Positions 2,985-23,497 of a DNA stretch of 24,015 nt are shown here, piece after piece; within the stretch, counting starts at the first letter, position 1, and every line of letters starts with the position of its first letter. Both the position numbers and the translations under genes were made by a program. This DNA is from a virus. The DNA lies in the IMG/VR virus record IMGVR_UViG_3300000228_000040, positions 1 to 24,015 of that record. The stretch is one strand, 5' to 3'. Below the pieces are notes generated by a model that saw only the letters and a list, made by a program, of their open reading frames with translations, was not told the origin of the DNA and did not search any database.

Positions 2985-3965
2985 ATGGAAATAAAAGTTT
3001 ATTCTCCGACAAGCCATAAAATAAAGGCTTTAATTTACGGAGATAGCGGAACGGGTAAGACAAGTTTTGGAGCAACAGCGCCAAACGTAATATTTGCAAG
3101 CGCGGAAGCGGGTTTGCTATCGGTTTGAAATAAACGTATTCCTTACGTTGAAATAAAAACCTTAAAAGATTTACACGATTTATATTTTTACCTAGTAAAA
3201 GGCGGGCATCCATACGAAACAGTTGTAATTGATTCAATAAGCGAAATAAACGACCTTATAAAATCACAACTAGAAGCAAAAAGAGGGCGCGCTCTACAAA
3301 TACAAGACTGGGGAGAAATAGCAAAACAAATCGAAGACGTTTTGAGAAAATTCAGAAGTTTAGACATGCACGTAATAATGATCGCCCAAGAAAGTATCGC
3401 AAGGGACGACCAAAAAATTATTAAATACACACCAAGTTTGAACGGAAAAACAGCAACAAAAATCGCATATTTTATGGACATCGTAGGGCATATTGAAGTA
3501 ACGCCAACAGGCGAACATTTAATCAATACGCAACCAAGCCCAAAATATCTGACAAAAGATAGAACAGGAAAACTGGGAAATGGTATCGCACCGGACTTTA
3601 ATTTATGGACTTTGGCAGTTGAAAGTATGGAAATATCAGAAGACGAAGAAAGTTTATATAATGAAGACCAGGACGAAAAACCAGCAGCAAAAAAAGAAAC
3701 GCCAAAAATTTGAGAAAAAGAAACCCCAGCACCTGCACCAGCAGCAATGGCAAAACCAAAAATGGCAAGCGAAAAACAAATTGCAATGATAAATGATTTA
3801 TACGCTCAATATAAAGAAAAAAGAGCAGAAAAAGCACTTGAATTAAACGACATAATCGCGAGAAAATACAGCCTTAACGGCGCAGCATTAAGAGACGTAA
3901 ACGATTTGACGACTACGTTTGCAAGCGATTTAATTAAAACATTACAAGAGCAAGTTTCAAAATAA
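2985..3965 (+). CDS. Sak4-like RecA-fold ATPase (AAA_24), recombination
   Basis: 326-aa phage nucleotide-binding protein of the Sak4/AAA_24 type, which in other phages acts in single-strand annealing recombination with SSB. Walker A is GDSGTGKT (residues 19-26) and Walker B TVVIDSI (D83). A sensor-like block MHVIMIAQ follows, then a beta-rich end of the core. After an Ala/Pro linker (about 245-255) comes an extra C-terminal helical domain beginning ASEKQIAMINDLY, like the tail found on some phage recombination proteins. TGA codons read as Gly (LLSVGNK, KIGEK). Start follows TTTTTTTACATAAACACATT. Paired with the downstream PD-(D/E)XK nuclease as a recombination module. Confidence 0.8.
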
Positions 3966-4004: not shown

Positions 4005-5327
4005 ATGCAACTTATTATAAACCAAGAAAACGTTGAACTTTTGCCAATAAAACATTTTTCAGTATCTGGACTTTTAGAATATATGAAAAACGAGCAAAGT
4101 TTTTTTAAAAAATATATTAGACTTGAATTTGACAACAAAACTTGACCGGCTTTAATGATATGAAAAGCCTTCCACGCTTGACTTGATTATTATTATTCTA
4201 GTTTAATGAACGGCGAGGCACAAAATATGACAGTTTCAGAATTTGCAAAAAGAAATTTATTTGAAGAAATAAGAGCAAACGAAAATTTGGGACTTTCAGA
4301 AATAGCAGCAGAAAAATTGACTAAAAAACAACAAGAAGACTGGGCAAAACTACAACCAAAAGACATCAAAGAATTTTTAGCCCCAGGCGAAGACGAAAAA
4401 ACTATCGCAGAAAAAACAGAATTTGAAAAGTTTTTATTGATTCACAATGACATCGAAAGCAGAGAACTTGAATTATTAAAAAGTTTTGGATTAACAGACG
4501 AAGAAATCCAGGAAGCAAAAACAAGATATATTGACTGGGGTAAAACACAAAACCCATTAACGGCAATAATCGACGTTGAAACAGTAGTAAAAAATTATTT
4601 TGATAATATACCAAACTACAAAGAGGTTTTATATTCAGAAGTAAAAGAAACAGTTGAAATATGCGACCTTGACGGGGAGGTTTTACCGCTTCCGCTAAAA
4701 TGAGCGCTAGACCTTATCGTTAGAGACGACCAAGGAAAAATTTGTATAGTAGATCATAAATGAGTTTGAAGCTTCGCAGATTTAACAAAATGAAAAGCAA
4801 GCTATGAACTACAAGCCGGAGCATATTTTTTTATCGCCTGGGCTATAACATGAGAGAGACCAACAAAAATGATTTTTGACGAAACTTTAAAAGGCGACGC
4901 AAAGGTTGTATGTAAAGAAGACCCAACAAGAAAACTTTTGCAAGCAGATTTAAAAGAACTTGCAGACGTAAACGGTATTGAATACGAAAAATATGTAAAA
5001 AATGCGGAACTTATCGAAATGCTTTTGACAGCAGGAGTTTTGGAATATACAAAAACTTTGAAACCAATTATTATTGACTACGACGAAACACCGGAAATAA
5101 TAACAGCATTTTTGGAAATATACAAAATCGTATTAAATAGGCTTTGAATAATGGCAATAATGGATGTTCCTTTTGAATTTTTACCAAATCCTTTTTCAGA
5201 TTTTTCATGAGAAGAAAGCTGGCTGGATTTTAAAGAAGGTTTAGACACTTCAAGAAGTTGGAAGGATTTAATGCAAGAAAAAAACGAAAGCGGAATAAAA
5301 GAGGAAATAAACGAAATTGAATTATAA
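4005..5327 (+). CDS. PD-(D/E)XK (RecB/Cas4-like) nuclease, 440 aa
   Basis: Visible motifs of the PDDEXK_1 superfamily are: GKAFHAGL with H57; KGALDLIV with D236 (the Gly is a TGA at 4701); ICIVDHKG with D250 and K252; and ELQAGAYFF with Q270 and Y274. The order His, GxxD, DhK, QxxxY matches RecB-type exonucleases. Residues about 70-225 form a large charged insertion with many helices; residues 290-440 are acidic and uncharacterised. The protein probably degrades double-stranded DNA ends to feed the Sak4-like protein encoded just upstream. At least ten TGA codons are read through, so it appears as fragments under the standard code. Ends in TAA. Confidence 0.8.
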
Positions 5328-5726: not shown

Positions 5727-6407
5727 ATGGAAAATATTTTTACACCCGAGTTTATCCCATACTATATTGAAGAGGTTTGATTATATAAATTAACTCCAAC
5801 AGAGGGGCTTTTATATGGATTTATTAGATTTTATAATAAAAGAGAAAATCAAGGTTTTTATTTTACATCAGAGCAATTATGAGAGATAATAAAAACAACT
5901 CCGAACATGATAAATAAAAGTTTATCAATTTTAGAACAAAAAGGTTTAATAATAAGAGATACAACAAGATATGCCGGAGGAAGTAAAAGAATTATTAAAC
6001 TTGCCACCTTACCAAATAGTAAGATGGCACCTTACCAAATAGTAAAAGCCACCTTACCAAATAGTAAGATAAAAGAAGAATATATTAAACAGAATAATAT
6101 AAAAGATAATAATATATGCGAGTTTGATAATTTTTGGCTTATATATAAAAGAAAAATAGACAAAGGCAGAGCCGAAAAATCGTTTAATTGTTTAACCACG
6201 CAAGAAAAAATCCTCGCCGTGGCTGGCGCAAAAAAATGGGCGGAAAAATGGGACGCGGAAAAAACAGAATCTGAATATATCCCGCACCCGACAACCTGGC
6301 TGAATAATAAACGTTGGGAAACAATACCACCAATAAAAAAAGGCAAAAGCCCCGCTAACGCATACCAGGATCAACCGGACAGCTTTTTGGACGGATTTAT
6401 TAAATAA
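5727..6407 (+). CDS. Phage replication initiator, winged-helix plus C-terminal domain
   Basis: 226 aa. The N-terminal part (residues about 20-90) reads as a winged helix: LTPTEGLLYGFIRFY, then FTSEQLGEIIKTTPNMINKS, then LSILEQKGLIIRD, as in phage replisome-organiser and DnaD-type initiators. A linker (95-125) carries the iterons. The C-terminal block matches the domain shared by phage replication proteins (FWLIYKRKIDKGRAEKSF ... YIPHPTTWLNNKRWE). It is followed after 14 bases by the helicase loader, the usual order initiator-loader (compare lambda O/P). It probably binds the internal iterons and recruits the loader and host helicase. Two TGA codons near the N-terminus are Gly. Confidence 0.75.
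6005..6120 (+). other. Probable replication origin: three iterons plus AT-rich tract
   Basis: CACCTTACCAAATAGTAA occurs three times, starting at 6005, 6028 and 6050. Each copy contains the hyphenated palindrome CTTAC-CAAATA-GTAAG (the second ends GTAAA). The spacings of 23 and 22 bases change reading frame, so the copies encode different peptides (ATLPNSK, APYQIVK, ATLPNSK); conservation is therefore at DNA level. A strongly AT-rich stretch follows at about 6065-6118 and could be the unwinding element. Iterons inside the initiator gene mirror the lambda O/ori arrangement. Confidence 0.75.
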
Positions 6408-6421
6408 CATACTTTTAAAAA

Positions 6422-6934
6422 ATGATACTAATTGATGACGAAAACAAAAAAGCAGTTGAGGAACTGCAAAAACTAAAACAAACCGGAGAATTTAAAACAC
6501 TAATAATATTTTGAGGGGTAGGAGTAGGGAAAACGTTTTTAGTAAAAAATATTTTTAATAATTTTGATTATTTTATAGACGAGCCGGAATTTAAGCAGCA
6601 AATCGTGAGTTGAGGGGCTAGATTAAAAACACCGGACGAATGGAGCGCAAGCCTTAAAACCTTCCCACTGGAAGCACTAACTAAATTTTGAAATGTAATT
6701 TATGATGATTACGGAACAGCGGATTTAAGTCCGGCATATATTGAAAAAATGCTTTACTGGATTAACCGCAGAATAGAAAAAGGATTAAAAACAATTATAA
6801 CAACGAATTTAACTTTTAAACAATTTGAGGAACGCGAAAAACGTATTGCTTCAAGATTAATGGAAAACGGAGTTTTAATGGAAATAAGCGGAAAAGACCG
6901 CAGGAAAAAAGAAACAAAAATAATTAAAGCATAA
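6422..6934 (+). CDS. DnaC-like helicase loader (AAA+ ATPase)
   Basis: 170 aa, shorter than E. coli DnaC. Walker A is GGVGVGKT (residues 31-38), whose first invariant Gly is a TGA (6512-6514). Walker B is NVIYDDYG (D95, D96), sensor I is TIITTNL (N129), and the box VII arginine is in RIASRL (R145). Such proteins load the replicative DnaB helicase at an origin. The gene follows the initiator by 14 bases. Its short N-terminus lacks an obvious separate helicase-binding domain, so a partner role for the initiator is plausible. Three TGA codons in total. Confidence 0.85.
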
Positions 6935-6939
6935 AAAAA

Positions 6940-6962
6940 CCCGGGACACACACCGACCCGGG
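6940..6962 (+). terminator. GC hairpin after the helicase loader
   Basis: CCCGGG at 6940-6945 pairs with CCCGGG at 6957-6962 across an 11-base loop. An A-run precedes it; the nearest T-run is about 12 bases later, so it may be a terminator reading best toward the minus strand or a 3'-end stabiliser. It stands out as the most GC-rich hairpin among the surrounding AT-rich DNA. Confidence 0.5.
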
Positions 6963-7032
6963 AAACAAATAATTTTATTTTTTAATACATAAACACTATG
7001 CAACATATTTTACAATATGCACCACCATAATA

Positions 7033-7086
7033 ATGAAAAACCGCATAAAATCAAGAAAATTTTTAAAATATAGTTTTTTACCATAA
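7033..7086 (+). CDS. Possible 17-aa basic peptide
   Basis: MKNRIKSRKFLKYSFLP then TAA, in the 227-base gap between the helicase loader and the next clear gene. A still shorter frame (MQHILQYAPP, 6998-7030) precedes it and does carry the conserved start leader TTTTTAATACATAAACACT. Neither can be supported beyond position. The rest of the gap holds the hairpin and a promoter-like element. Confidence 0.15.
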   Translation: MKNRIKSRKFLKYSFLP

Positions 7087-7098
7087 AAACGATAAAAT

Positions 7099-7161
7099 AA
7101 ACTTGCTTTTTTATATAAAAACTATAATATAATTTTAATTTATTAAACACACATAAACACT
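7099..7161 (+). promoter_or_regulatory. Promoter-like AAACTTG-N17-TATAAT
   Basis: AAACTTG (7099-7105) and TATAAT (7123-7128) separated by 17 bases, with the block AAAAACTATAATATAAT shared with the element at 11061. It lies 34 bases before the start of the 212-aa gene, whose ATG follows ACACACATAAACACT. Probable middle promoter for the methyltransferase/SSB block. Confidence 0.5.
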
Positions 7162-7800
7162 ATGCTTGATATTAAAACGCTAAATGCGACAATTCAATGG
7201 CTTGCAAGTAAGCAGGCAGACACCCCAAGCGACGGAGGTAAAAAAAAGCTAATTCAAAACCTAATTTATGAGCTGCAAGGAAAAACCCAAGACATTGAAA
7301 CAGCAGCAGAAATTATACAACCAACACACGAGGAAATTTTGGAACTTATAAAAGACACCAAAACTCAAACAATTTATAAATGTAAATTTTGCGGAGTAGA
7401 GCAAAAAATTTATAAATTATATTTTTCAACAATTCACGCAAAAATCGCATCAAAAATTTTTAAATACTGCGTTGAAAACAAAACACACGTTTTTAATAAA
7501 AAAGACCTAGATCTAGATCATACCGAATATTGAAACTTCCCATTTTTAAAACGTTTCGGGCTTATCTATAAAGAAAAACCGGAAACAGGGAAAACATACG
7601 GCGCACCAGTAAGAAGACTCAAAGAGTTTTTTGAAGGTAAATGGGCGGTTGCAGAATACAGTGTCAAAGATACTAAAAGCAAACGCCAGGAAGTAAGCGA
7701 AACCCGCGTTTTTATACAAGATATTAAAAAAATGCAGACAGAGTTTATGGAAGGATTAAAACCGTTTTTTGTAGAATATGAGAAACAACAAACAGAATAA
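7162..7800 (+). CDS. Hypothetical 212-aa protein, possibly DNA-binding
   Basis: Unrecognised. The N-terminal half is helical and polar. One Cys pair (CKFCG, around residue 75) could be half of a metal site, but no second pair is nearby. The middle (HVFNKKDLDLDHTEYGNFPF, then LKRFGLIYKEKPETGKTYGA) resembles a winged-helix segment followed by a basic wing. One TGA (EYGNF). The start is supported by the ACACACATAAACACT leader. First gene of the block leading to the cytosine methyltransferase and SSB. Confidence 0.6.
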
Positions 7801-7824
7801 TTTTATTATATAAATTTTAAATTT

Positions 7825-7941
7825 ATGGAAAATATAAAAATTTCAGATTTACAAGCAATTTTAAATTATGCAAAAGAAAATGATTTTGACGAAGATGATA
7901 TTATAAACGTTGGAGAAATTAAAAATATTTTAGATTTATAA
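7825..7941 (+). CDS. Hypothetical 38-aa acidic protein
   Basis: MENIKISDLQAILNYAKEND followed by an acidic tail (FDEDDIINVGEIKNILDL). Short amphipathic, acidic protein of unknown role, five bases before the methyltransferase start. No TGA. Composition is protein-like, so it is more likely real than chance. Confidence 0.45.
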   Translation: MENIKISDLQAILNYAKENDFDEDDIINVGEIKNILDL

Positions 7942-7946
7942 TCATT

Positions 7947-8927
7947 ATGAAAATGATAAAAATATTTGATACATTCGCATGAGTAGGAGGCTTTCATTTA
8001 GCGCTTGAAAATGCAATTTGAAAAGAAAATGTTGAACTTATAGGATTCAGTGAAATAGATATTTTTGCAAAGCAAACATATCTTAAAAACTTCCCAGGAG
8101 CGAAAGACTTTTGAGATATAACAAAAATTGATATTAAAAACTTACCCGATTTTGATTTAATAACTGGGGGATTTCCTTGCCAAGATGTAAGCGTTGCAGG
8201 AAAACAGGATTTATTATGAGGACGCACGGTTTTAGTTGAATATCTTTTAGAAATTTTAGAAATAAAAAAACCTAAATATTTTATTTTTGAAAATGTAAAA
8301 GGTTTGATGAGTAAAAAATTTGATACTTTCAGAAATTCAATTTTTGAAAGAATACAAGCAGCTTGATATAATTTTCAATATAAAATTTTAAATACAAAAA
8401 ATTATGGACTTCCACAAAATAGAGAAAGAATTTATATCGTTTGAACTTTAGAAAATATAAATTTTAAATATCCGGAAGAAAAACCACTTAAAATATTTTT
8501 AGAAGATATTTTAGAAAAAGAAGTTGAAGAAAAATATTTTATTTCAAATGATGTATTTGAAAAATTAAAAAAATATGAAAGTAATGCTCGTTTAGTAGAA
8601 AAAATATGTAGTTGTTTAAATACTATGCAAGGATGACATAGGCAACCTAAAATCGTTGTAAATAAATATAACAATAGAGCTTTTGATGATGGAGTTTGCG
8701 GAACTCTTTGAACAGGTATGGGGTTTACAGGAAAACAAGGTTATCAAGTAGTAAATAATGACAAAAGTATTAGAAAACTTACACCACTAGAATGCGAAAG
8801 GTTGCAAGGCTTCCCAGATAACTGGACGGCAGGAGTTTCAGACTCACAAAGATATAAACAAATAGGAAATGCAATAAGTATACCAGTTGCGGAAAATTTA
8901 TTTAATAATTTATTTAATAATTTATAA
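7947..8927 (+). CDS. DNA (cytosine-5) methyltransferase
   Basis: 326 aa, complete Dcm-type enzyme transferring methyl from SAM to cytosine C5. Motif I is IFDTFAGVGGFHLALE; the first Gly is a TGA at 7980. Motif IV is GGFPCQDVSVAGKQ with catalytic C78. Motif VI is FIFENVKGL with E115. Motif VIII is RERIYIVG. Motifs IX/X are LTPLECERLQGFPDNW and YKQIGNAISIPVAENLF. The target recognition region (about 175-235) is short. No restriction enzyme is adjacent, so it is probably an orphan phage enzyme protecting virion DNA. It appears more AT-rich than its neighbours. The C-terminus ends in a 12-base tandem repeat coding LFNNLFNNL. Confidence 0.92.
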
Positions 8928-8931
8928 TAAT

Positions 8932-9357
8932 ATGAACAAAGTTTATTTGATATGAAATATCACAAAAGAAGCAGAAATGAGACAAACAGAAAGCGGGACA
9001 ATGGTTGCCTCGTCTTCAATAGCCACAAACGAATTTTACAAAGATAAACAAGGAGAAAAACAACAACAAACAGAATTTCACAACTTAACAGCTTTTGGAA
9101 AAACTGCAGAACTTTTTGAAAAATATATAAAAAAAGGACAAAAAATTTTAATAGAAGGAAAAATGAAAACTAGATCATGGGAAGGGGACGACTGAAAAAA
9201 AAGATATTCAACTTATGTTTTAGTTGATAAAGTTGAATTTTTGGGAGGAAATAAAAAGGACGAAGGAGTAAGTATTGATGACGTCGAGGAAATTTTTGAC
9301 AATAAAAAATCAGTAAAAACCGACGACAATATCAGTATCGAAGATATTCCTTTTTAA
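8932..9357 (+). CDS. ssb: Single-stranded DNA-binding protein
   Basis: 141-aa SSB with a full OB fold: MNKVYLIGNITKEAEMRQTE (the Gly is a TGA at 8953), then SGTMVASSSIATNE, TEFHNLTAFGKTAELFEKYI, KKGQKILIEGKMKTRSW and RYSTYVLVDKVEFLG. The linker is short and acidic and ends in DIPF, the conserved tip that recruits SSB-interacting replication and repair proteins. It lies four bases after the methyltransferase. It should act with the Sak4-like protein, nuclease and loader in replication and recombination. Confidence 0.92.
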
Positions 9358-9406
9358 AACAGACTATGTAAAAACTTTTAATTTTATTTTTTAATTTAAA
9401 CACACT

Positions 9407-9703
9407 ATGATTAAAAGCAGCTTAAAAATCGAGGAATACCCTCACAAAAAAACATTTTTTGAAAAAACAAAAATAAAAGAAGCGGCATTATTTTTAAAAG
9501 ATTTTGTATTTAACCATGAGCCGACAAGTGTTAAATATGTATGAAATAAAAGCTATAAAATAAAATTTCATACAGCTTGCGACTTATTCCCTATTTATAT
9601 TTTGCCACAATTTGCGATTTATAAATGAGTAAGAAACATCGGTTTTTCTTTCGGTTTTCTATTTTTTAGAATAGACATCGATTTTATTTCTTTACTAGAT
9701 TAA
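9407..9703 (+). CDS. Hypothetical 98-aa protein
   Basis: Unrecognised. Starts MIKSSLKIEEYPHKKTFFEK after TTTTTTAATTTAAACACACT. The C-terminal 35 residues are hydrophobic and aromatic (FPIYILPQFAIYKG, then IGFSFGFLFFRIDIDFISLL), suggesting beta strands or a membrane-associated part. Two TGA codons. Three bases separate it from the next gene. Confidence 0.5.
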
Positions 9704-9706
9704 ATT

Positions 9707-10192
9707 ATGGACGTAGTAGAAAAAGCACTTATCGCGGCAGGCGTAGACGTTGCAAAAAAAATGGAAAATTTTTTAAAAGAAAACGGGGTAAATCCTGGAA
9801 ATATAAAAAATTATGAAATAATCCAAGAGCAAAAGAAAAAAGCAATGGAAATCACTATTTTAAAAAAGCCAGGATTTTTTTGAAAACTAATCGGAAAAAG
9901 GGGCGAAAAAATAGCAACAATGGGAGTTTATTTTGACGGGCTAGTAAATGATTTTATCGATAAAATAAAAGCAGAAGAAACAAAACCAATGGGAACAGCC
10001 GTTGAAGATATAAACGCAGGCGACCTGGTAGAAATAGACACAAAAACCGGACAAATAAAAAAAGCAAAACAAAACCTTGAAAAGCCTTTATCTTCTAAAA
10101 AGGCAAAAAATGAAAAAGACCCCAATAAAAAAAGTTGGAGAAAAAAGGAAACAGAGACAAAAAAATGGGCAAAATGAAAAGATAGTATTTAA
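9707..10192 (+). CDS. Hypothetical 161-aa basic protein
   Basis: Unrecognised. The N-terminus is helical (MDVVEKALIAAGVDVAKKME); the middle has GFFGKLIGKRGEKIA. A short beta-type segment (DINAGDLVEIDTKTGQIKKA) resembles the small barrel in the decoration protein at 20454. The C-terminus is strongly lysine-rich. Two TGA codons, the last four codons before TAA. The lysine-rich end overlaps the next gene by 83 bases, an unusually long overlap. Confidence 0.5.
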
Positions 10193-10445
10193 ACAAATAT
10201 GGGACGAGCGCGAACACAAATGCGAGGTATGCAATAAATATATTTATGAGCCTGCGACGTATTGCTTCGCGCACGTTTTGTCCAAATGACTTTATCCCCA
10301 GTTTAGAACAGAGCCGGAAAATATAAAACTCGTTTGTAGTATAAAGTGCCACGGCGACCTCGATAAAATGTATTTGAGAGAAAAAAGGCGCGAATTTGAA
10401 TTATTTTTATTACAAAAACAAAATGAGACCATTATCGAAAGCTAA
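10110..10445 (+). CDS. HNH-type zinc-binding protein (NinG/HNH-like), 111 aa
   Basis: A basic N-terminus is followed by HKCEVCNKYIYEPATYCFAH, then a TGA-encoded Gly (VLSKGLYPQF), then NIKLVCSIKCHGDLDKMY. The two Cys pairs and His residues in the order CxxC, H, CxxxCH are typical of a small HNH endonuclease, comparable to phage NinG-type junction or recombination proteins. ATG 10110 is the first start in frame downstream of unrelated sequence. It overlaps the upstream gene by 83 bases and the VRR-NUC gene by 23. Nuclease activity is inferred, not shown. Confidence 0.6.
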
Positions 10446-10836
10446 CCAAGAGAGAATTTCAAAGGGTTTGGGAATAATTCCCCTGGAAGACCAGGAGCAA
10501 GAAAATTTTGTAAAATATATGGAAATATTACAGGGGAGCGGGAAAATTTGCAAATTTACAGCAATTCCAAACAGCACCCGCACACCATACATCAGCGTGA
10601 GAGTAAAACAGATCAGACAATGAGTGCGTGCAGGACTTCCCGACCTTTTTATTATTTACAAGAAAAATAAACAAAAAAAAGCCGTTTTTATAGAAATGAA
10701 ACGCAAACAAGGCGGAACAGTCAGCCAAGAGCAAAAAGAGTGGATTCACTTATTAAATGAAACCGAAGGACTGCAAGCGTTCGTCGCAAAATGATTTGAT
10801 GAAGCAAAACAAATTTTAGATAATTTAATTTTTTAA
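10423..10836 (+). CDS. VRR-NUC nuclease (PD-(D/E)XK), 137 aa
   Basis: Standalone VRR-NUC domain. Residue blocks are QGVRAGLPDLFIIYK (the first Gly is a TGA at 10621), AVFIEMKRKQGGTVSQEQKE, WIHLLNETEGLQAFVAKGF and DEAKQIL. The D of GLPDL and the E-x-K of IEMK form the PD-(D/E)XK active site. Such phage proteins act on branched DNA or junctions. Paired by overlap with the HNH gene upstream, so both may process recombination intermediates before packaging. Confidence 0.82.
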
Positions 10837-10853
10837 TTTTAAATTATTAAATA

Positions 10854-11057
10854 ATGAGAAATTTTACAAAAAAAGACTGGAAACAGCCAGGGATTAAAGT
10901 TTATTATATCGATGATAGTTTAAGACTTCGGATTTGATATATTGAAACTCCAGGAGAAAAAGAAACCATTTGCAATATGATAAACCAACATATTACAGCA
11001 GACAAAACCCCAGTAAAAATCAGCATTCCAAATAATAAATTAAGACAAGAAAAATAA
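10854..11057 (+). CDS. Hypothetical 67-aa protein
   Basis: Unrecognised. MRNFTKKDWKQPGIKVYYID, then LRLRIGYIETPGEKETICNM, then a polar tail. One TGA. Its stop is followed at once by a tandem promoter-like region, so it is likely the last gene of this block. Confidence 0.5.
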
Positions 11058-11120
11058 AACTTGTTTTAATACTAAAAAACTATAATATAATATCGTTTTA
11101 ATACTAAAAAACTATAAAAT
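11057..11120 (+). promoter_or_regulatory. Tandem promoter-like direct repeat
   Basis: An exact 23-base repeat (GTTTTAATACT then AAAAAACTATAA) occurs at 11063-11085 and 11095-11117, 32 bases apart. The first copy is preceded by AAAACTTG and contains TATAAT (11081-11086), 17 bases after the TTG. The second ends four bases before ATG 11121. It could be two promoters, or a promoter with a repeated operator, driving the methyltransferase fusion and SpeD-like gene. Confidence 0.5.
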
Positions 11121-12539
11121 ATGGAAATTATACAAAAGAAATTAAAAGACCTTGTGCCTTATCAATTTAACAATAAGAAACACCCGGAAAAACAAATTGA
11201 TTTACTAATAAATAGCATAAAAGATTTTTGATTTACACAACCAATAGTCGTTGACGAAAATAATATAATTATAATCGGACACGCCAGGACAGAAGCAGCA
11301 AAAAGATTATGACTTGATACTGTTCCTGTAATTGTTAAAAGCGACCTTGATCCAGTAGCAATTAAAAAACTTAGAATCCTAGATAATAAATTATCAGACC
11401 TTGCCGAATGGGACAAAGAAAACTTAAAAATAGAGTTGGAAGACATCGGCGACCAGGATTTGACAGATTTATTTGACGATTTAAACCTTGATATGGAAGA
11501 CGACCCATATAAATGAGGAAGCGGAATATTAAACGATAAATTTTGAGTTCCCCCATTTTCAATGCTAGATACTCGCCAAGGTTACTGGTTAGAGAGAAAA
11601 AGAACGTGGAAGGATTTAATCCAGGACGAAGGAGAAAGCAGACAAGAAACATTATTTAAAAAAATGACTACCGGAGCAGGGAAAAAAATATCAGCTATCG
11701 GGACAGTTTCAATTTTAGACCCAGTCCTTGCAGAAATAATGATTAAATGGTTTTGCCCGAAAGGAGGAAAAACGTTTGACACTTTCGCAGGCGATACGGT
11801 TTTTGGGTATGTTTCGTCACATTTGGGACACTCTTTCAAAGGTATAGAGTTGAGACCAGAGCAAGCAAGATTAAACAACGAGAGAACGAGAGAAAAAGGA
11901 CTTGACGCAGAATATATTTGCGACGACGGACAAAACGTTTTAAAACACTTCGAGGAAAATTCAAGAGATTTTTATTTCAGTTGTCCGCCTTACTTCGATT
12001 TAGAAGTTTACAGCGACGACCCAAAAGACGCCAGCAACCAAGGAAGTTATGCGGAATTTTTACAAATACTAGATAATTCTTTCACGGGAGCAGCAAAAGT
12101 ATTAAAAAACGATAGATTTGCCGTGGTAGTAATGTCAAATATTAGAGATAAAAACGGTTTTTATATTCACATCGTGGACGATATAAAAAGGATCATGCAA
12201 AAGAACGGTTTGAGACTATACAACGACATAATTTTGATAAATAGTTTTTGAAGCGCAGGACTTAGAGCAAATAATGCAATGAGAAACAGGAAAGTTGTAA
12301 AAACCCACCAAAACGTTATGGTGTTTTATAAATGAAGTGACCTTTTAGAATTAGAATCAGAATTTGCCGACACAAGGGAAACGATAAAATTTCACGAAGA
12401 TATTTTGGTATTTTACAAAGGAGATCCAAAAAACATTCAAGCAACATTTTGAGAGGTTGAAATGGAAGATATGGAGGCAATGATAGAAGCCGAGGCAGTA
12501 GACGACGAAGACATAATGCCAGCAAACGAAAATTTATAA
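11121..12539 (+). CDS. ParB-like domain fused to DNA methyltransferase
   Basis: 472 aa. Residues 1-110 are a ParB/Srx-type domain: LVPYQFNNKKHPEKQIDLLI, GFTQPIVVDENN, IIGHARTEAAKRLGLDTVPV. A linker leads to an N6/N4-type methyltransferase with the family signature RQGYWLERKRTWKDLI, a SAM-binding motif FDTFAGDTVFGYV (F222-AGD) and motif IV SCPPYFD (C288-PPY, a variant of DPPY). This ParB-methyltransferase architecture with YW-x-x-RKR is known in many phages. The C-terminal 40 residues are very acidic. At least five TGA codons (for example KDFGFTQP, KRLGLDT, YKGSG). Probable orphan modification enzyme; target unknown. Confidence 0.85.
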
Positions 12540-12555
12540 TATAATACCAAGAGCA

Positions 12556-12936
12556 ATGACATTTGAAACAAGAGGGAAATTTTACGGGGTGGACGTATGG
12601 TTTAAAAACGAATTGCCAAACATACCGGATTTTTTGGAAAAACTAGCCGACGCGTGCAAATTACACATAGTCGCAGAAACTAGAAAAAACTTCAAACCAG
12701 GCGAAACGATAGTTTATATTTTATCAGAAAGCCACCTCGCAGTCCATACTTACCCGGAGCATAAATATTTGAGTTTAGATATTTACACTTGCGGGGACGA
12801 AGGACAACCGGACAACGCCGGAGAGTTTTTGGAGCAGTACCACCACGAACTCGGAATCGAGAAAATATCTCAATATAAAATGCAAAGAGGTATGCCGAGA
12901 GGCAGCACGCCGACAAACGACGTAATTTATTTTTAA
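12556..12936 (+). CDS. speD: SpeD-family pyruvoyl-dependent decarboxylase
   Basis: 126 aa, the length of a bacterial class 1b S-adenosylmethionine decarboxylase proenzyme. The key block is ILSESHLAVHTYPEHKY: self-cleavage between E58 and S59 would create the pyruvoyl group. H64 and C79 (in DIYTCGD) have the same spacing from the serine (5 and 20) as the catalytic His and Cys of characterised SpeD. The enzyme would make decarboxylated SAM for spermidine synthesis. Some SpeD homologues instead decarboxylate arginine or ornithine, so the substrate is not certain. It lies 16 bases after the ParB-methyltransferase. It has no TGA codon. No spermidine synthase is visible in the window. Confidence 0.9.
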   Translation: MTFETRGKFYGVDVWFKNELPNIPDFLEKLADACKLHIVAETRKNFKPGETIVYILSESHLAVHTYPEHKYLSLDIYTCGDEGQPDNAGEFLEQYHHELGIEKISQYKMQRGMPRGSTPTNDVIYF

Positions 12937-12946
12937 AACGGAAAAA

Positions 12947-13123
12947 ATGAAAGCGTATAAATTAAAAGAAATCGCGGATCAAGAAGGCAAACATTATCAA
13001 ACAGTTTTGAAATCTAAAAGAGAATACATCAAAATTGAAATAGACAGGGGGAAACGTAAACCCCTTGTCAGATATTTAGACCGCAAGACCAGCGAAGCAA
13101 TAAAAAGTTTACAACTTAAATAA
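12947..13123 (+). CDS. Small DNA-binding-like protein, 58 aa
   Basis: Basic protein starting MKAYKLKEIADQEGKHYQTV, which looks like a helix-turn-helix of the excisionase/MerR type. It is followed by a short beta pair (YIKIEIDRGKRKPLVRYLD) and a C-terminal helix. Role could be transcription control or DNA bending; the fold call is tentative. Ten bases after the SpeD-like gene, no TGA. Confidence 0.45.
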   Translation: MKAYKLKEIADQEGKHYQTVLKSKREYIKIEIDRGKRKPLVRYLDRKTSEAIKSLQLK

Positions 13124-13132
13124 AAAAGCAGC

Positions 13133-13306
13133 ATGAAGAAAAAAAGAAATTCAAGGGCTTTATGGAAAGCTAAACAAGCAAGAAAAGAAAAAGAGGCAAG
13201 ACAAACAATGCAAAGAACGAAAACAAAACAAAAATATTTTGCATACCCTATGCTCGCAGTAATGATTATATTTTTTATTGTTTTACTTTATGTTTTAATA
13301 TTTTAA
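13133..13306 (+). CDS. Small membrane protein with basic N-terminus, 57 aa
   Basis: A highly basic cytoplasmic segment (MKKKRNSRALWKAKQARKEK) is followed by one transmembrane helix at residues about 38-57 (YPMLAVMIIFFIVLLYVLIF), ending at the C-terminus. It is a tail-anchored topology. The position just before the terminase fits a holin-like or assembly-site protein, but nothing specific identifies it. Confidence 0.5.
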   Translation: MKKKRNSRALWKAKQARKEKEARQTMQRTKTKQKYFAYPMLAVMIIFFIVLLYVLIF

Positions 13307-13309
13307 CCT

Positions 13310-13969
13310 ATGGCAAAAACAAAAGTTAAATGAGATTTAAGTAATGCGGAAGCTAAAAAAGTTTTGAAGCAAGAAAAAGAAGCAGAAAAAGCAAAGATAA
13401 AAGTAAAACAAAAGCCGATAAAAAAGAAATCAAACGCAAAAAAAAGACCACCAAGCAGAGGAACAAGACTCAAAGAGCCAATATGGAAAGAGTGTGTTTT
13501 ATGCGGCGAGGATTTTCAGACACATTACGAAGTCGTAAAACTATGCTCGCCCGAGTGTGTGGCGGAATATAACTCAATGCACTCTTGACGTCCAAAAGCT
13601 GATTTGGAAGCCATAAAAGAGGCATTAAAACCTTATTTACAAATAGGGTGTGATTTAAGCGAAGCAGTGCTGGAAGCGTGAGTTTGCAGCCTTAGAACAG
13701 TTACAAGATACAAAAAAATAAATGAAAAGTTTAGTCAATGGTTAGACGCAATGATGAACTTTTCGCTTATAAAATCAAAACGTGTGATATACAAGGCAAT
13801 ATCAAACAATGACGTTGCAAGTGCAAAGTGGTGGTTGGAGCGTAAGAAGCCGTCAGAGTTCGCACCATACAACAAAACAGACCTTACAACGTGAGGAAAT
13901 CCGATCGGGTTTACAATGGATTTGCCACCTTCGCAATTTTGAGAAGACGACGAAGACGATGACGAATAA
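13310..13969 (+). CDS. terS: Probable terminase small subunit with N-terminal zinc motif
   Basis: 219 aa. A lysine-rich N-terminus leads to ECVLCGEDFQ ... KLCSPECVAEY, a Cys4 knuckle (CxxC, then CxxxC). Next is a helix-turn-helix region (LEAIKEALKPYLQIGCDLSE, AVLEAGVCSLRTVTRYKKIN) and the WWLERKKPSEFAPYNKTDL segment typical of terminase small subunits, which recognise phage DNA for packaging. The C-terminus is acidic (GEDDEDDDE). Five or more TGA codons. Its place directly before TerL supports the call. The zinc knuckle is an uncommon addition. Confidence 0.7.
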
Positions 13970-14161
13970 AAACTCCGGTATATTAAAACGCGACAAAAAC
14001 TATAATAAAATATTGTTTTTTTATATAAAAACTATATATTAGAAACAGTAAAAAACGCGTTTTTTTAAAAGTTTATTTCACAGTGGCTATATAAGTATAT
14101 GTTTTAGTATAAAAAACTATATGTGAGTATATTAAAAGCCGTCAAAAACTATAATAAAACT
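13970..14161 (+). promoter_or_regulatory. Promoter-like cluster upstream of terL
   Basis: This 192-base gap holds no gene. Four copies of AAAAACTATA stand at 13995, 14027, 14112 and 14144. Two carry perfect TATAAT (14001-14006, 14150-14155) and are preceded by a shared TATATTAAAA block. One has TTG 17 bases upstream of TATATA (14013, 14033). Between them is the perfect palindrome AAAAAACGCGTTTTTT (about 14050-14065). The last copy is only seven bases from ATG 14162. Likely late promoter/operator region. Confidence 0.5.
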
Positions 14162-15517
14162 ATGGCAGAAAAAAAGAAAACAAAAAAGGCAGATTATGTG
14201 CCTTTCGATAAACAAAGACAATTCCACACATCAAAAAAACTATATAGATTTTTTGGTTGAGCCATGGGAGGAGGGAAAAGCAAAGCCGAACGTATGGAAG
14301 CCGTAAGATTATCACAAAGAAAACCAAACCTCGTTATATGATTATTTCGTAGAACGTTCCCGGAACTCGAAGCAGCTATCATAATGCCACTTTTAGCAGA
14401 ATTACCAAAAGACGTTTATGTTTACAATAGTTCAAAACATCAAATGACTTTCAAAAACGGAAGCAGGATTATATTTTGACACGTAAACAACGACAAAGAC
14501 GTTTTTAAATATCAAGGGGCAGAGTTCGACGCAATAGGAATTGATGAGCTGCAACATTTCAAAGAGCAACAATTTGACTTCTTAATGACCCGTTTAAGAA
14601 CGAGTAAAAAAGGGTGGACACCGTGTTTTTTCGGAACAGGAAACCCAGGGGGGATATGACACGGGTGGATTAAAAGGCGTTGGGTTGAGCGTGATTTTAG
14701 ACCAGGAGAGCAGTCGGAGGAATACGAATATATCGCCTCGACTTTATACGATAATCCCGCACTTTTAGAAAATGACCCGAATTATGTAAAAAGACTGGAA
14801 ACACTAGACGAACAGCAAAAAAAGGCATATTTATACGGGGACTGGGACATTTTTGACGGGCAATATTACACTGAGTGGAATCCGAACATCCATATTATAA
14901 AACCTTTCAAAATACCATACGAGTGGAAGAAAGTCCGCGCCCTGGATTATTGATATTCTAACCCTTCAAGTATTGTTTGGCTAGCAGAAGACCCAACAGA
15001 CGGGACGGTTTACGTTTATAGAAATGTAAATAAAACAAAACTATTATATCAAAATTTATGCGATGAGCTTTTAAACAACAGCCCGGACGACGAAATTTAT
15101 GTATGAACGGCAGCAGACCCAGCGTTGAGGGCTAAAACAGCAGCAACCGGAGAAACTTTTTTTGATATTGCAGAAAGGAACAAAATAAATATAATTCCAG
15201 GAGACAACGACAGATTATCGGGGGCGCAATTAGTAAGAAGTTTATTGACACCTTACGAAACCCCACACGAAAACGGAGCAAAGGCAGGAATACACATATT
15301 TGAGAACTGCACCTCGCTTATTAAAAGTTTACCGTCTTTGCAATTCGATAAAATAAGAGTTGAAGACGTAGACACCAACGGAGACGATCACGACTTCGAC
15401 GCGTTAAAATACGGGCTAAAACTTTTGAAGAACGCACCCGCAGAATTAAAACAAGTTGCAGAACTGAACGACAAGGCAAAGCGTAAAGACAGGGCGCTTA
15501 TAAACTTCCGTTTTTAA
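14162..15517 (+). CDS. terL: Terminase large subunit
   Basis: 451 aa, full-length packaging motor. ATPase: Walker A FFGGAMGGGKSK (residues 31-41; G33 is a TGA at 14258), Walker B AIGIDELQ (D128, E129) and coupling motif GTGNPGG (about 155). RNase H-like nuclease: LDYGYSNPSS (D262), TAADPAL (about D319) and DDHDFDALKYG (about D409-D413). It cuts concatemeric DNA and pumps it into the prohead through the portal encoded next. At least seven TGA codons read as Gly, including the conserved DYGYSNP. Confidence 0.95.
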
Positions 15518-15541: not shown

Positions 15542-17824
15542 ATGGCAGAAGAAACAAAAGAAACAACCGACACGTTGTTAAACGAGACCGGGGCAAGTTG
15601 AACGAAAATCCTTTGAGGTTTTATTTCAGAGGAATACAACCAGGATTTGACAGGGTCAACAGGACTAAAAAAATATGACGAAATGAGAAAGTCAGACGCC
15701 CAAGTTTTTGCAACTTTACTTGCTATGGAGTTGCCTATCCGTTCGACACTTTGGAATATAGAGCCAGGACAAACAGAAGCAGTAGACGGGGAATATATCA
15801 CGACAGACGAAGATTATATCATCGCAAATTTTATTGAAAAATGTTTGTTTGAAAAAATGGAAATTACATGGGACGACTTCATCAGACAAGTATTAACGAT
15901 GACAGTATTTTGATTTTCGTTATTTGAAAAAGTTTTTAAATTTGACGGTGATAAAATCGTTTTAAAGAAATTAGCTCAAAGGTTGCCGTGGTCTGTTTTT
16001 AAGTGGGAAACAGCCGAAGGACTACCAGGAGTGCAACAAGTATTATCAACGCAAACACCAAACGGAACGTCTACGCCTTCAATACCAGCCGAAAAGTTGG
16101 TGCGTTTTACTTTCAGACAAGAGGGGGACAATTACGAAGGGACAAGTGTTTTGCGTTCAGCATACAAACATTGGTATATTAAAGACACTTTGTATAAACT
16201 AGACGCAGTTAAACACGAAAGGCAAAGCGTTTGAATACCAGTTTTAAAAATACCAAAGGGGGCAACCGCAGCAGATAAAATGGAAGCGGAAAACATAATG
16301 GAAAATTTAAGAAGCACGGAGCAAACTTATGTAATACTACCAGGGGACGACTGGCATTTTGAATTTGCAGACCTAAAAGCAGGAAGCCAAAGCAAAATGG
16401 AAGAAAGTATCGCACATCATAATAGAGAAATCAGCAAAAATATTTTAGCGCAATTTTTAGAACTATGAGCCGGAAGCGGTGGAAGTTATGCGTTAAGTGA
16501 AGACCAAAGCGATTTATTTTTGATAAGCCTTGCAGCAATAGCAAGACAAATTGCCGAAACTTTAAACAGGGATTTAATAAAACAATTAGTGGACTTAAAT
16601 TTTACGCTTTGAGAAAATCAAACTTATCCAAAGCTTAAATTTAATAAACTCGGGGACGTAGACTATGCGAAATTATCGAGTTCATTATCAACACTTGCAG
16701 GGGCTGGGATTATACAACCGGACAAAGATTTGGAAGACCACGTGAGAACAGTTTTTGACCTACCAAAAAGACTTGAAGGCGAAACAATGGAAGACGAAAT
16801 GGAAGACGAAACAGACGAAGAAATGGAAGACACAAGCGAAATGGAAATCGCACCGGAAGAAATGACACCCGAAGACCAGGACGCAGAAATCGGACAAATG
16901 GAGCAAGAACTCGCAGACCTAGAAGCAAGCGAATTGCAAGCCAGAACAGAAAACGAGATCATCAGACTTTCAGAAAAAAACGAAAGTTTACAATTTGCAG
17001 ACGTTAGCCAAGAGACAAAAGACAAAATCAGTGAAGCACTTATCGCATATTGGAAATGAAAAGGGAAAAAATCAAACGACGAAGTAAAAGGGCAAAGAGA
17101 CAAAGCAAGCCAAGACCTAGAAAAAGCAAGAACGAACATCGGGCAAGCAAGGGACGAATTTAATATGGCAGCAAAACCAATAAAAGGCGACATTGAAAAA
17201 CTTAAAAGCCTAAAAGATAGTTTGCCAAAAGGGAAGGCAGGAAAAGTCCAAAGAGACGCATTTAATCAAAAACTAAAAGAAGTTAGAGCAAATTTGAAAG
17301 CTCTATCATGACAAAGACAAGAAAAAATGGCAGCACTTCAAAGCATAAGGTCGGCAGCATATAAAAACAGAGTGGAAGCAAACAAAGAAATAAAAGCAAG
17401 AAAAGCAACCATTAAAAAAGCGCTAGACCAAGTGAGGGAAAAATTAAACGCCGGAAAATTATCAGCAAAACAAGCAGCCGACCAAGTAAACGCAAAAGTT
17501 GAGGCGAATAATTGAAAAATGCAGGAATTAAGAAACCAAGTCAAAGCAGCAGGAAAAGACAAAAATAAAAAAGAGGCTTTGAGAGCGTTAATTGACGGGT
17601 TAAGAGCAGAAAATCAAAATTATAGAGGCGAAGTCAAAAGAATTAAAAAGGATTTTGCAACGAAAAGAGAATCAACGCAAGCAAAAATCGCCGAAGTAAA
17701 AAAGCAAACGCAATTTAAAGAGGCAGGATTTGCAGACGAAGCGGAGGCGCTAGCTTTTCAAGAAGCAAAAAACACATTTAATATTTATGATATTCTTAAA
17801 ATCCAAAACTATGGCAACAAATAA
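15542..17824 (+). CDS. Portal protein (DUF935/Mu gp29-like) with long coiled-coil tail
   Basis: 760 aa in one frame. Residues 1-400 are a DUF935-type portal: FISEEYNQDLTGSTGLKKYD, ATLLAMELPIRSTLWNIEPG, LPWSVFKWE, KLVRFTFRQEGDNYEGTSVL and HHNREISKNILAQFLELGAG. Portal rings form the DNA entry vertex bound by TerL. From about residue 400 an acidic segment (EDEMEDETDEEMED) leads into some 300 residues of Lys/Glu/Ala/Gln heptad-like helix, making it far longer than usual portals of about 450-520 aa. About ten TGA codons; under the standard code it splits into six pieces. Overlaps the MuF gene by 14 bases. Confidence 0.85.
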
Positions 17825-18911
17825 CACTTTGCAACTTGTAACCAACCAAGCTGCCGCAGCATATTTTAAGGAAAGCGAAATGATAACAAACGAAATCGTC
17901 GCAAAACTTTTGGACGCAGCCGCAACACCGGAAGACCGCCAAAAACTAAAAGCAATGTGATTTATTCAAAATCCTTTCGCAGAAAATATGGCATTTGCAG
18001 AACGTAAAGTCAACCTGGAAAGTATCGCAAGAAGTTTTGACGCTTTCGAGGCTAGATTTAACGCAGAAGTTAAAACAATTACAGAAAAAGAGAAAAAAAG
18101 AATTTTAGCAGAGATAAAAGCCGCACTCGAAGCAAACGACGCGGCAGCTTTGCACCAAATACAGGCAGAATTTAAAGGGGAATTATCAAAACAATACGCC
18201 CAAATAAGCAAAGAAATATTTGAAACAGGGAAAAAGACAGCAAGCGACGAAATGCAAGTGAAAGTCCCAGGAACAGACAAAGACGTTTCGGGAATGTATA
18301 GAGCGCAAGCCGACCACATGGAAACAAAAATCGGAAACGACATCACAAACACAGCAAAAGACGAAGCATTTTATCAACTACAAAAAGGCGTTAGCACTGC
18401 GGCAATTTTAAAACAAATTGAAAAAGCCCTGGATCAGAAACTAGAAAAACTTATTAGAGCAACAACCAGCGCAGCCGTAGGGGGTGCATTTAATACCGGA
18501 CGTATTGCAGTTTATGAAACATACCCGGAAAAAGTGTATGCGTTCCAATATACCGCAGTTTTAGACAATAGAACGACGAACATTTGCAAAAGCCTACACG
18601 GTAGAGTTATCGCAAAGGACGACCCGGATTTTTACAGGTTTGCACCGCCTTTGCATACAAATTGCAGGTCGTTTTGGGTGGAAATATTAAGCAATGAGTT
18701 TATAAAACCTAAAATCTCGACTATACCGGCAAGCATACCAAGAGACCGCACGTGATACAATAATTTTCAAGACTTGCAAAAAGTAATCCCAAACGGGGAC
18801 GTGCAAGAAGCTATTGACGCAAGGACAAGAGCCGAAAAACTAATCCAAAGCGGCGGGGTTTTTGATAGCTTAATCGAGCAACTTTCAATGCAAGGCATAA
18901 AGTTTAAATAA
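17811..18911 (+). CDS. Mu F-like head morphogenesis protein
   Basis: 366 aa. The C-terminal third carries the classic MuF/SPP1 gp7 signature: FQYTAVLDNRTTNICKSLHG, then FAPPLHTNCRSFWV, with Cys and His residues in the expected order. The N-terminal 230 residues are helical and charged. Minor head protein that associates with the portal and, in some phages, is ejected with DNA. Starts inside the end of the portal gene (14-base overlap), so translation is probably coupled. Two TGA codons (AMGFIQN, RTGYNN). Confidence 0.85.
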
Positions 18912-18942: not shown

Positions 18943-19141
18943 GGAAACAAATAAGCACTTAACCACACCCGAAACGATAGAAAAATCAGCACTTTTAAAC
19001 AGTTTGTTAATAGTTAGAAGGGCTTTGAATATCTTAATAGCTGACGTATTAGAAAGCAACGGGAAAACGGTAAAAAAAGAGGACGTCAAAAGACACTATT
19101 TATATTTATTAAAATCTTTATTATGACAAATCAACAAATAA
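18941..19141 (+). CDS. Hypothetical 66-aa protein in head cassette
   Basis: METNKHLTTPETIEKSALLN, then a hydrophobic helical region (SLLIVRRALNILIADVLES), then a basic tail ending LLKSLLGQINK with one TGA. Unrecognised; sits between MuF and the protease gene and overlaps the protease start by 19 bases. Could be a small head accessory protein. Confidence 0.5.
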
Positions 19142-20415
19142 GATTTTTCGGAGAAATGGGGACACTGGAAGGAAACAAAAGCGAAATCCAAATAATGAGG
19201 GTTTGAAACTGGAATCACGCGCAATATGGCGAGTTCAATATCACACCCGATATGTTAGACGACTTTATAAAAAACTTTCAAGAAAATAAAAGAGGTATTG
19301 ACCTTGCGGTCGATATCAACCACGAACCAAACCACAAAGCTGTATGATGGATTAAAAAACTAGCAAAAAAGGGTGGCGACGCCGTTTTTGCAACAGTGGA
19401 GTGGACAAAAGAAGGCTTAGAACTCGTAAAGAGCGGAGCATATAAGTATTTTTCACCCGAATTATTTTTCTCGTTCCGCGATGAGGAAAGCGGGGAAACA
19501 ATACAAAATCTTTTAGTTTGAGGCGCTATCACAAACCGTCCATTTTTCAAGAGGATGAAAGCTCTTGCGATGTCGGAAACTGGAAGCAACGAAAACGGAG
19601 AAAAGAAAGACATTTTATATTTTAATTTATTTGATATGTCAAAAAAATTTAGTGAAATTAAAACAGAATTAGCAGCAGCGGAAAAAATCACTGCCGAACA
19701 ATTTGAAGACGCAAAACTGGCTTTTAGTGAATTATCACAAGAAGACCAAGCAACAGAAATGGGAACTATTACAGACCTAGAAAAAAAAGTGGAAGCCGGA
19801 TCATGAGAAGACGAAAAAACTGACGCAGAAAAAGAAGCAGAAGCGAAAGCAAAAGCAGACCAGGAAGCAGCAGACGCAGAAGCAAAAAGAGTTGCAGACG
19901 AAGCAGCAGCAAAAGCAGCAGCAGAAGGAAGCGACGAGCAAAAAGAATTTAGCGAAAAAGTAAAAAACGAAGTTGGAATGACATTTGCAGAAATTAAAGA
20001 AATGCAAAAACAATTTGCAGAAATGGCAAGAAGTAAAAAAGAAATGGAAACAAAAGAAAAAATGAACTCTTTTATTTTTAGCGAAGCAAACCCAACAGGG
20101 AAAATCGCGAAAAAATCATCAGATAAATTTATCGCTTTTGCTTCTAAACTTTCTGACAACCTAGCAGCAGAATTTTTCGAAATACTTAATCCGTCTAATT
20201 TTCAAACGGTAGAGCTATGAGAAAAAGGAGCAACAGGATCAGACACACCAGCAGCAAAATTTGCAGAAATTGCAAAGAAAACACCAGCAGGAGTGGATGA
20301 GAAAAGTTTTGCGCTTTCAGTTCTAGCAAAGGAATTTGCAGAAAAGGAAGGGTTAGACCTAAAAAACGCAACCATTAAGGCGGCAAAATACATGGAAGAC
20401 AATAAACTCGCTTAA
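19123..20415 (+). CDS. Mu I-like prohead protease fused to scaffold
   Basis: 430 aa. Residues 1-150 match Mu gpI-type proteases: MRVGNWNHAQYGEFNITPDM, IDLAVDINHEPNHKAVGWIK (H67), GAYKYFSPELFF (S111) and VGGAITNRPFFKRM. Residues about 165-430 are a scaffold-like tail: long Ala/Glu/Lys coiled coil (about 230-300) and a small C-terminal domain (MEDNKLA end). In Mu the scaffold is made from an internal start of the same gene; ATG codons near 19555-19570 could serve here. The product should guide capsid assembly and then be cleaved away. Four TGA codons. The next genes are the decoration and capsid proteins. Confidence 0.8.
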
Positions 20416-20453: not shown

Positions 20454-20813
20454 ATGTATACTATCGAAGGGAAAGTTTACAGTGCAAAAGCTGCGGCAGC
20501 ACTTGAAGAAGGGACACTTGTAAAATTAGATACAACAGAAGGGCAAGTTGCACAAGCAACAACAGCAACTGACGAAGTTTTTTGAGTTACAACAATAATT
20601 GCAGCAAGTGGACAAAGCGTAGCCGTTCAAGAAGACGGAATCGCAAGAGTTAAACTTGGTGGAACAGTAGCAATTTGAAACAAATTGACAGCAACAACAG
20701 CAGGGGTTGCAATTACTACAACAACAGCAGGAAATTTATCTTTTGGTATTGCTTTACAAGCAGGTGCAACAGGTAATTTTATACCCGTTCTATTAAGAAG
20801 GACAACAGTTTAA
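20454..20813 (+). CDS. Capsid decoration protein (DUF2190-like)
   Basis: 119 aa, Ala/Thr/Gly/Val-rich beta protein: VYSAKAAAALEEGTLVKLDT, VFGVTTIIAASGQSVAVQED, GIARVKLGGTVAIGNKL and FGIALQAGATGNFIPVLLRR. The pattern fits the small trimeric head-stabilising proteins (gpD/DUF2190 type) encoded directly before major capsid genes. Two TGA codons. Upstream leader is an A/T-only stretch ending AAAAAATATG. Confidence 0.7.
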
Positions 20814-20870: not shown

Positions 20871-21812
20871 ATGTCAACAACAGCAAGAAATGTAAGCGTA
20901 GATATGGCACTAACTAATCTATCTATCGCGTATAAAGTAGAAGGACTTATCGGGGACGCAGTAGTTCCAAACGTTCCAGTAGTAAAAGACTCTGGAAAAT
21001 ATTTTGAATGGTCTAAATCAGATGATTTTAGAAATTTCAACGGAAAAGATTTGAGAGCACCAGGAGCACTTTCAAAAACTATTGATTTTTCAACTTCTAC
21101 ATCTACATATTCAGCGGAAGAATACGCGCTTAATGTGTTTATTTTAGATAAAGAAAAACAAAACGCAGATAGCGTATTAAATCTTGAAATCTCAAAAACG
21201 AACAGACTTAAACAAAGTTTAATGATCGCGAGAGAAGCAAGAATTGCTGCACTTTATACAAACGCTAGTAATTTTGCGTCTACAAATAAAGTGACTTTGT
21301 CATGAACTTCACAATGGAATAATGCGTCATACGCAGGAAATATCGTTGAAGAGTTAGACACTGCAAAAGAAGCAGTAAGAAAACAAATCGGAAGACGTCC
21401 AAACACGATTATCATCCCGGAAGCAGTAGCAGACGTTATGAAAAACGACTCAAACATTATCGAGCTTTTGAAATATACAAAAACTGATATGCTTGAAAAT
21501 GGAGACCTTCCAAAAAGAATAAGAGGCATGAACGTTATAATCGCTGGTGCGGTTTCAAATACAGCTATCGACGGAGCAACAGACTCTATCGGAGATATTT
21601 GGGGAAAAAACGTTGTTCTTGCTTATATCAATACAGCAAATCCAACAGTAGACGACATTTCGTTTGTTTACGGTTTTAGATCACAACAATTAACAGTTAG
21701 AAAATGGAGAGACGACCCAAAGAAAGGGGATTATATCGAAATGGAATACTGCGAAGATATAAAAGTTGTTTCAAATGTAGCTGCATATCTAATAAAAGAT
21801 TGTATCGCTTAA
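20871..21812 (+). CDS. Major capsid protein, HK97 fold
   Basis: 313 aa. The start MSTTARNVSVDMALTNLSIA, the P-domain helix region EISKTNRLKQSLMIAREARI, the A-domain block RKQIGRRPNTIIIPEAVADV and the C-terminal strand block ISFVYGFRSQQLTVRKWRDD are typical of major capsid proteins of this class (similar to Mu gpT and coliphage relatives with PNVPVVKDSGKY). It builds the icosahedral shell. Only one TGA (LSGTSQ). It is followed by a hairpin and not by an immediate gene, as expected for a highly expressed mRNA. Confidence 0.85.
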
Positions 21813-23044: not shown

Positions 23045-23497
23045 ATGGCAACAACTTACACAACTACGCAAAAAGTCAGAGATGAGGCAGGTTTTAAAAA
23101 TAATACAAATATTTTAGACGTAAATATTGATGATTACAGAACACAAGCAAACGGACGTATTCAAACAATAATCGGACAAAAATATACTTTACCCCTTTCG
23201 TCTACATTACTTGTAAATAGTCCAGCCGCTGGATTATTAGACCTTATCGAAAAACTTTTAGCAGCCGGTTATTTACTTTGGAAGGAATATTGACCCGACG
23301 CAGAAGGAACAGATAAAGACGGAGTGCCTAGAATAAACAGGGCTGAAGATATGCTGAAACAAATATTGACGTGAGAATTAAAACTATTAGATAACGCCGG
23401 AGGGTCTTTTGATACAACAGGAGGGCAAGAAAACACTATAAGTGGCTATCCTACAAATTCAACAGACCGCAAATTTAGCGTTAATATGAAGTTTTAA
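23045..23497 (+). CDS. Head-tail connector, gp36-like (DUF1320)
   Basis: 150 aa. MATTYTTTQKVRDEAGFKNN, then IDDYRTQANGRIQTIIGQKY, then LLDLIEKLLAAGYLLWKEYG, and a Gly/Thr-rich end. This matches the helical connector proteins typified by Mu gp36 (DUF1320), which sit below the portal. Two TGA codons (EYGPD, TGELK). Its TAA overlaps the next ATG (TAATG), so the two genes are coupled. Confidence 0.7.

Follow-up and report, generated by a model that had tools for sequence, protein, structure and literature searches.

The window analysed here, the 24,015-bp linear IMG/VR virus contig IMGVR_UViG_3300000228_000040 in its full length, very probably represents a partial genome of a tailed dsDNA phage that uses genetic code 25. 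In the window, UGA is a glycine codon. This reading, put forward in a preliminary description of the sequence, is borne out when codons are compared with those of a close relative and when residues are scored against profiles; both comparisons reject tryptophan. The window thus belongs to a further code-25 phage of a kind already published (PMC10746230, PMC13059738), and this assignment is well supported and expected.

Gene content

When read under code 25, the window contains 33 genes, all on the + strand, which comprise recombination and replication genes, nucleases, two methylases together with an S-adenosylmethionine decarboxylase, and then a terminase–head–neck module. The upstream part encodes a Sak4-like recombinase of the AAA_24 type (2985..3965; phrog_124, E=5.7e-59, PF13479; 2 in-frame TGAs), a PD-(D/E)XK (RecB-like) nuclease (4005..5327; PF12705; 10 TGAs, including 4701), a replication initiation protein (5727..6407; phrog_270, E=3.9e-21; 2 TGAs), a DnaC-like helicase loader (6422..6934; phrog_50; TGA 6512 in Walker A), a C5-cytosine DNA methyltransferase (C5MT; 7947..8927; PF00145, E=7.7e-81; 8 TGAs, including 7980 in FA[G]VGG) and a single-strand DNA-binding protein (SSB; 8932..9357; PF00436, E=1.8e-35; TGAs 8953, in LI[G]N, and 9193). 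These are followed by an HNH endonuclease (10116..10445; phrog_7370, E=1.9e-6; 1 TGA), a VRR-NUC nuclease (10423..10836; PF08774; TGAs 10621 and 10792), a small ORF (10854..11057), a fusion of a ParB-like N-terminus with an N6-N4 DNA methyltransferase (11121..12539; phrog_498, E=9.8e-131, PF02195, PF01555; 7 TGAs) and the S-adenosylmethionine decarboxylase SpeD (12556..12936; PF02675, E=1e-20). None of the nine glycines of this phage-borne SpeD is encoded by TGA.

The downstream part consists of the terminase small subunit (TerS; 13310..13969; phrog_4102, E=8.8e-8; 5 TGAs), the terminase large subunit (TerL; 14123..15517; phrog_979, E=2.3e-47, PF04466; 6 TGAs, including 14258 in FG[G]AMGGGKS), a Mu-type portal protein (15542..17824; PF06074, E=2.6e-55; 9 TGAs), a MuF-like minor head protein (17811..18911; PF04233; 2 TGAs), a Mu I-like head maturation protease/scaffold (19123..20415; PF10123, E=5.5e-19; 5 TGAs), a head scaffolding/decoration protein (20454..20813; phrog_673, E=3.7e-22; 2 TGAs), the major head protein (20871..21812; phrog_1005, E=4.4e-72; 1 TGA) and a neck/tail completion protein (23497..23994; PF05069, phrog_26; 6 TGAs). 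The presence of TerL, portal and major head protein in a single module places the phage in Caudoviricetes. The true start of TerL is probably ATG 14165 and not GTG 14123; the copy in the close relative begins at the position equivalent to 14165. The gap between the two terminase genes is flanked by a 33 bp direct repeat (13978-14010 and 14127-14159, 91% identical). Neither tRNA genes nor matches to Rfam families were found in the 24,015-bp window. Searches of viral contigs with the head protein, SSB, DnaC and the RecB-like nuclease returned no relatives, and neither did PDB searches with DnaC and TerL.

UGA encodes glycine

The 33 reading frames comprise 7,052 codons, 98 of which are in-frame TGAs; these occur in 30 of the genes, and the frames are free of TAA and TAG. 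Accordingly, ORFs of 100 aa or more cover 0.33 of the window under code 11 and 0.81 under code 25. TGA accounts for about 22% of the glycines in replication and head genes alike (56/217 in early versus 42/213 in late genes, p=0.14). All six TGAs singled out in the preliminary description (4701, 6512, 7980, 8953, 10621 and 14258) are indeed in frame and lie in the genes to which it had assigned them.

The meaning of the codon is most directly seen in comparison with L003 (IMG/VR contig 3300001592_000195), which is itself recoded and is the only close relative retrieved when viral contigs were searched with TerL. With TGA masked in the query, TGAs of the window face TGA in L003 22 times, a glycine codon 17 times and another residue six times, whereas TGAs of L003 face TGA 22 times, glycine 29 times and alanine or serine four times; tryptophan is never found opposite TGA in either direction. 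Relative to a glycine background of 6%, the excess of glycine is highly significant (binomial p = 2e-16 for window TGAs and 2e-31 for L003 TGAs). By contrast, TGG behaves as a tryptophan codon, being kept in 31 of 33 window–L003 pairs.

Profile scoring led to the same result. In each of the four local profiles, which were derived from standard-code relatives (C5MT, TerL, portal and VRR-NUC, the last two from four and two relatives, respectively), glycine is the best of the 20 residues at TGA, and in the portal profile it leads the other 19 by 16 bits. Tryptophan scores 18-25 bits below glycine for C5MT, portal and SSB; the SSB, for example, obtains 158.8 bits with glycine, the top score among the residues tried, versus 140.9 with tryptophan. 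When all 10 TGAs of the RecB-like nuclease gene, and not 4701 alone, were swapped together, the PF12705 (PDDEXK_1) profile gave 38.2 bits with glycine and a weak 29.0 bits with serine, and no match was reported with tryptophan or seven other residues. DnaC is the sole weak case. TGA 6512 corresponds to the first glycine of its P-loop, GGVGVGKT, and phrog_50 favours glycine over tryptophan by 12 bits (76.4 versus 64.6), but over the three TGAs of the gene the profile does not separate glycine from aspartate, which scores 1 bit higher.

The preliminary description had also placed the TGAs at invariant glycines. This holds for column 7980 of C5MT, in which 76 of 77 IMG/VR methylases have glycine and the remaining one has TGA, but not for others, such as 8217, 8709, 14339 and 15104. 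The occurrence of TGA at non-invariant positions is expected if it serves as an ordinary glycine codon. Indeed, among about 80 methylases, columns 8112, 8364 and 8442 are mostly glycine and the other TGA columns of C5MT are variable, as is normal for any glycine codon. Elsewhere, glycine is found in 12 of 15 sequences at column 14258 of TerL (TGA in one, glutamate in two), in two of three at column 10621 of VRR-NUC, the third having TGA, and in all three SSBs at column 8953, as well as in the PDB SSBs shown.

Gene ends deserve a more cautious reading. The genes were described as closing on TAA or TAG, and the count is correct (31 and 2, respectively), but under code 25 this is true partly by construction. 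None of the 33 genes needs a TGA stop; two cases are ambiguous, since TGAs 2657 and 19124 lie inside ATGA overlaps with the next start, with TAG or TAA following 2–5 codons on. Termination at these two TGAs is possible and would shorten two small genes by a few codons. At the second junction, L003 has the same layout, with TAA right behind.

Avoidance of CGA and CGG

A second codon signal concerns codons beginning with CG. In-frame CGA is absent from the window (57 expected from positional composition) and CGG occurs only twice (15 expected), whereas CGT and CGC are near expectation and CGA is found 301 times on the + strand when any frame is counted. L003 likewise has no CGA, and both of its CGGs found sit in one small ORF, the counterpart of 10854..11057 in the window. 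There, one L003 CGG faces Trp9 (TGG) of the window and the other faces the window CGG at 10929, which is the only window CGG with an aligned counterpart. Absconditabacteria are predicted to read both CGA and CGG as tryptophan, and some Gracilibacteria to read CGG as tryptophan (PMC8629427). The three codons in two columns hint, short of proof, that CGG may stand for tryptophan in these phages as well. The L003 copy is the only homologue retrieved for the small ORF, and PHROG matches that appear only with CGG read as tryptophan are at chance level (E 0.09). A recoding that extends beyond code 25, in which CGG (and CGA) would mean tryptophan and these codons would be avoided because their meaning differs between hosts, is therefore a tentative proposal, and we consider it rather doubtful. 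If true, it would, to our knowledge, make this the first phage shown to follow a bacterial sense-codon reassignment.

Relationships of the head module

The proteins of the head module are full length and 63-81% identical to those of L003, an independent recoded contig with code 25 and an identical order of head genes (TerL 81%, TerS 81%, MuF 79%, portal 78% and head protein 75%); it is the one other record in which the module was found in code-25 form. The two phages differ in the ParB fusion (window 11121-12539, L003 950-2362): the ParB-like N-terminus of 107 aa is 86% identical, whereas the methylase domains behind it are clearly different. This suggests that the methylase part of the fusion has been swapped. 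The next relatives of the head module are Mu-type portal/MuF phages (for example L156, L157 and G175:C79), which share the portal, MuF, protease and head protein families with the window but use code 11 and are only about 27-45% identical. The module therefore seems to have entered the code-25 phages from elsewhere.

Host assignment

An Absconditabacteria or Gracilibacteria host had been proposed for the phage. The genetic code, the kinship of its genes to those on code-25 contigs and the avoidance of CGA and CGG, codons that such hosts have reassigned or seldom use, support, short of proof, a host within this class. The closest relatives of Sak4, 63% (G001) and 52% (G017) identical, are encoded on code-25 contigs of Gracilibacteria-class metagenome-assembled genomes (MAGs), whereas the best phage record among the matches listed is 41% identical. 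The first of these MAGs is assigned to Gracilibacteria, and its Sak4 contig also bears an SSB gene and, as judged by eye, nuclease-like and HNH-like frames among its ORFs. Similarly, C5MT is 66% identical to a gene on a recoded contig of another MAG of the same class (G004), and in the phylogenetic tree it groups with three other TGA-recoded sequences, from this contig and two IMG/VR contigs (support 99/91). Thus, both Sak4 and C5MT tie the phage to code-25 contigs by gene kinship. A further IMG/VR contig, 3300002060_000003 (L074), shares homologues of C5MT, HNH, SSB and orf7162 with the window; it has few TGAs and a different terminase, and is a probable code-25 phage.

Other observations count against this host or carry little weight. 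The spacer search suggested in the preliminary description, which covered 353 genomes of the class and scored the two best candidates per genome at the setting used, gave no CRISPR-spacer-like match, which is weak evidence against this host group. A 34 bp match of 97% identity at 875-908 (G123) and further spacer-like matches at 780-931 were rejected as spacers, since this part of the window is AT-rich and finds matches in many genomes. In Gracilibacteria-class genomes, neither a close relative of TerL or portal (best TerL match 32%) nor a related prophage was found; not every such phage has a related prophage. The share of glycines encoded by UGA in the window (22%) is below that of the code-25 host loci sampled (0.25-0.93). 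The only portal match, in one Gracilibacteria-class MAG bin (G175), was rejected as host evidence, because it lies on a standard-code contig of 61% GC and the gene is split over the contig ends. This phage contig (G175:C79; L170-L172) is 41,984 bp long, is probably a circular genome and looks like contamination of its MAG.

To survey the distribution of code 25 itself, 85,462 species genomes were scanned for EF-Tu/IF2 sequences in which the invariant glycine of the HVDHGKT loop is encoded by TGA. Of 28 stretches recovered, 26 have code-25 coding density, and the named ones come from Gracilibacteria or the ‘Patescibacteria group’, in agreement with the published distribution of the code (PMC8629427). 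The other two TGA-containing HVDHGKT-like patterns, in a Troglogloeales MAG (L115) and in Gracilibacteria CG12 (L113), lie in sequence of standard-code density and may reflect chance or contamination.

In such a host, tRNA-Gly(UCA) of the bacterium would most likely insert glycine at phage UGA codons, and most likely no UGA-reading release factor would compete. The window itself reveals the meaning of the codon; this step of the mechanism draws on published data on such hosts (PMC8629427, PMC13059738).

Alternative explanations

The in-frame TGAs could in principle be accounted for otherwise. UGA read as tryptophan (code 4), as in Mycoplasma-type hosts, is the commonest bacterial reassignment of this codon (PMC8629427), yet the complete lack of tryptophan opposite TGA in L003 and its consistent deficit in the profiles run against it; the column data already refute this reading, and its probability is negligible. 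Alternatively, the frames might be broken, that is, represent pseudogenes, sequencing errors or short genes with true TGA stops. Code-11 ORFs do span a third of the window (33%), and the ATGA overlaps at 2657 and 19124 are typical of stop/start junctions. However, the frames with the 98 TGAs are devoid of TAA and TAG, TGA swaps with GGN codons, and the head module yields full-length proteins that match those of an independent recoded contig. For the genome as a whole, broken frames are already refuted and hardly conceivable.

A less remote, albeit improbable, explanation is that the phage infects a standard-code host and has UGA read as glycine only through a suppressor tRNA of its own, encoded outside the fragment. 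There are phages that reassign stop codons although their hosts keep the standard code (PMC10746230), one code-25 phage is known to encode a tRNA-Gly(TCA) (PMC13059738), and the window is a fragment devoid of tRNA genes. Against this, TGA is equally common in early and late genes, including the replication genes that are needed first, which does not resemble a late-gene switch, and both the avoidance of CGA and CGG and the gene kinship point to code-25 hosts. A phage reading UGA as glycine in a code-25 host therefore remains the preferred explanation.

Relation to known code-25 phages

Such phages are better known than the preliminary description had it, which called them little described: those of Gracilibacteria and Absconditabacteria, including prophages, have been catalogued, with 107 spacer-matched contigs for the two groups (Liu et al. 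2023, PMC10746230), and a complete one, the tailed Absconditicoccaceae phage RSA-ATP1, was reported in 2026 (PMC13059738). Compared by description, the catalogued phages resemble the window in their dense in-frame TGAs, in the increase of coding density under code 25 and in hallmark tailed-phage genes that are readable only under this code; they differ in that CRISPR spacers or integration linked them to their hosts, and neither kind of link was found for the window. RSA-ATP1, likewise compared by description, is tailed, uses code 25 throughout, and has recombination genes and an SSB-like protein. It carries lambda-type Exo/Bet/NinB/NinG and four tRNAs, including tRNA-Gly(TCA), whereas the window has Sak4, a RecB-like nuclease, two methylases and SpeD, and no tRNA in the fragment.

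The window adds an independently verified code-25 phage to the few viruses known from uncultured episymbiotic bacteria, and the only close relative found for its head module is another recoded contig. A gene caller set to the standard code would fragment 30 of the 33 genes, and phages of this kind are therefore easily mis-annotated. Moreover, the near-absence of CGA and CGG could help to assign phages to these hosts and could be used to test whether the sense-codon reassignment of Absconditabacteria constrains their viruses.
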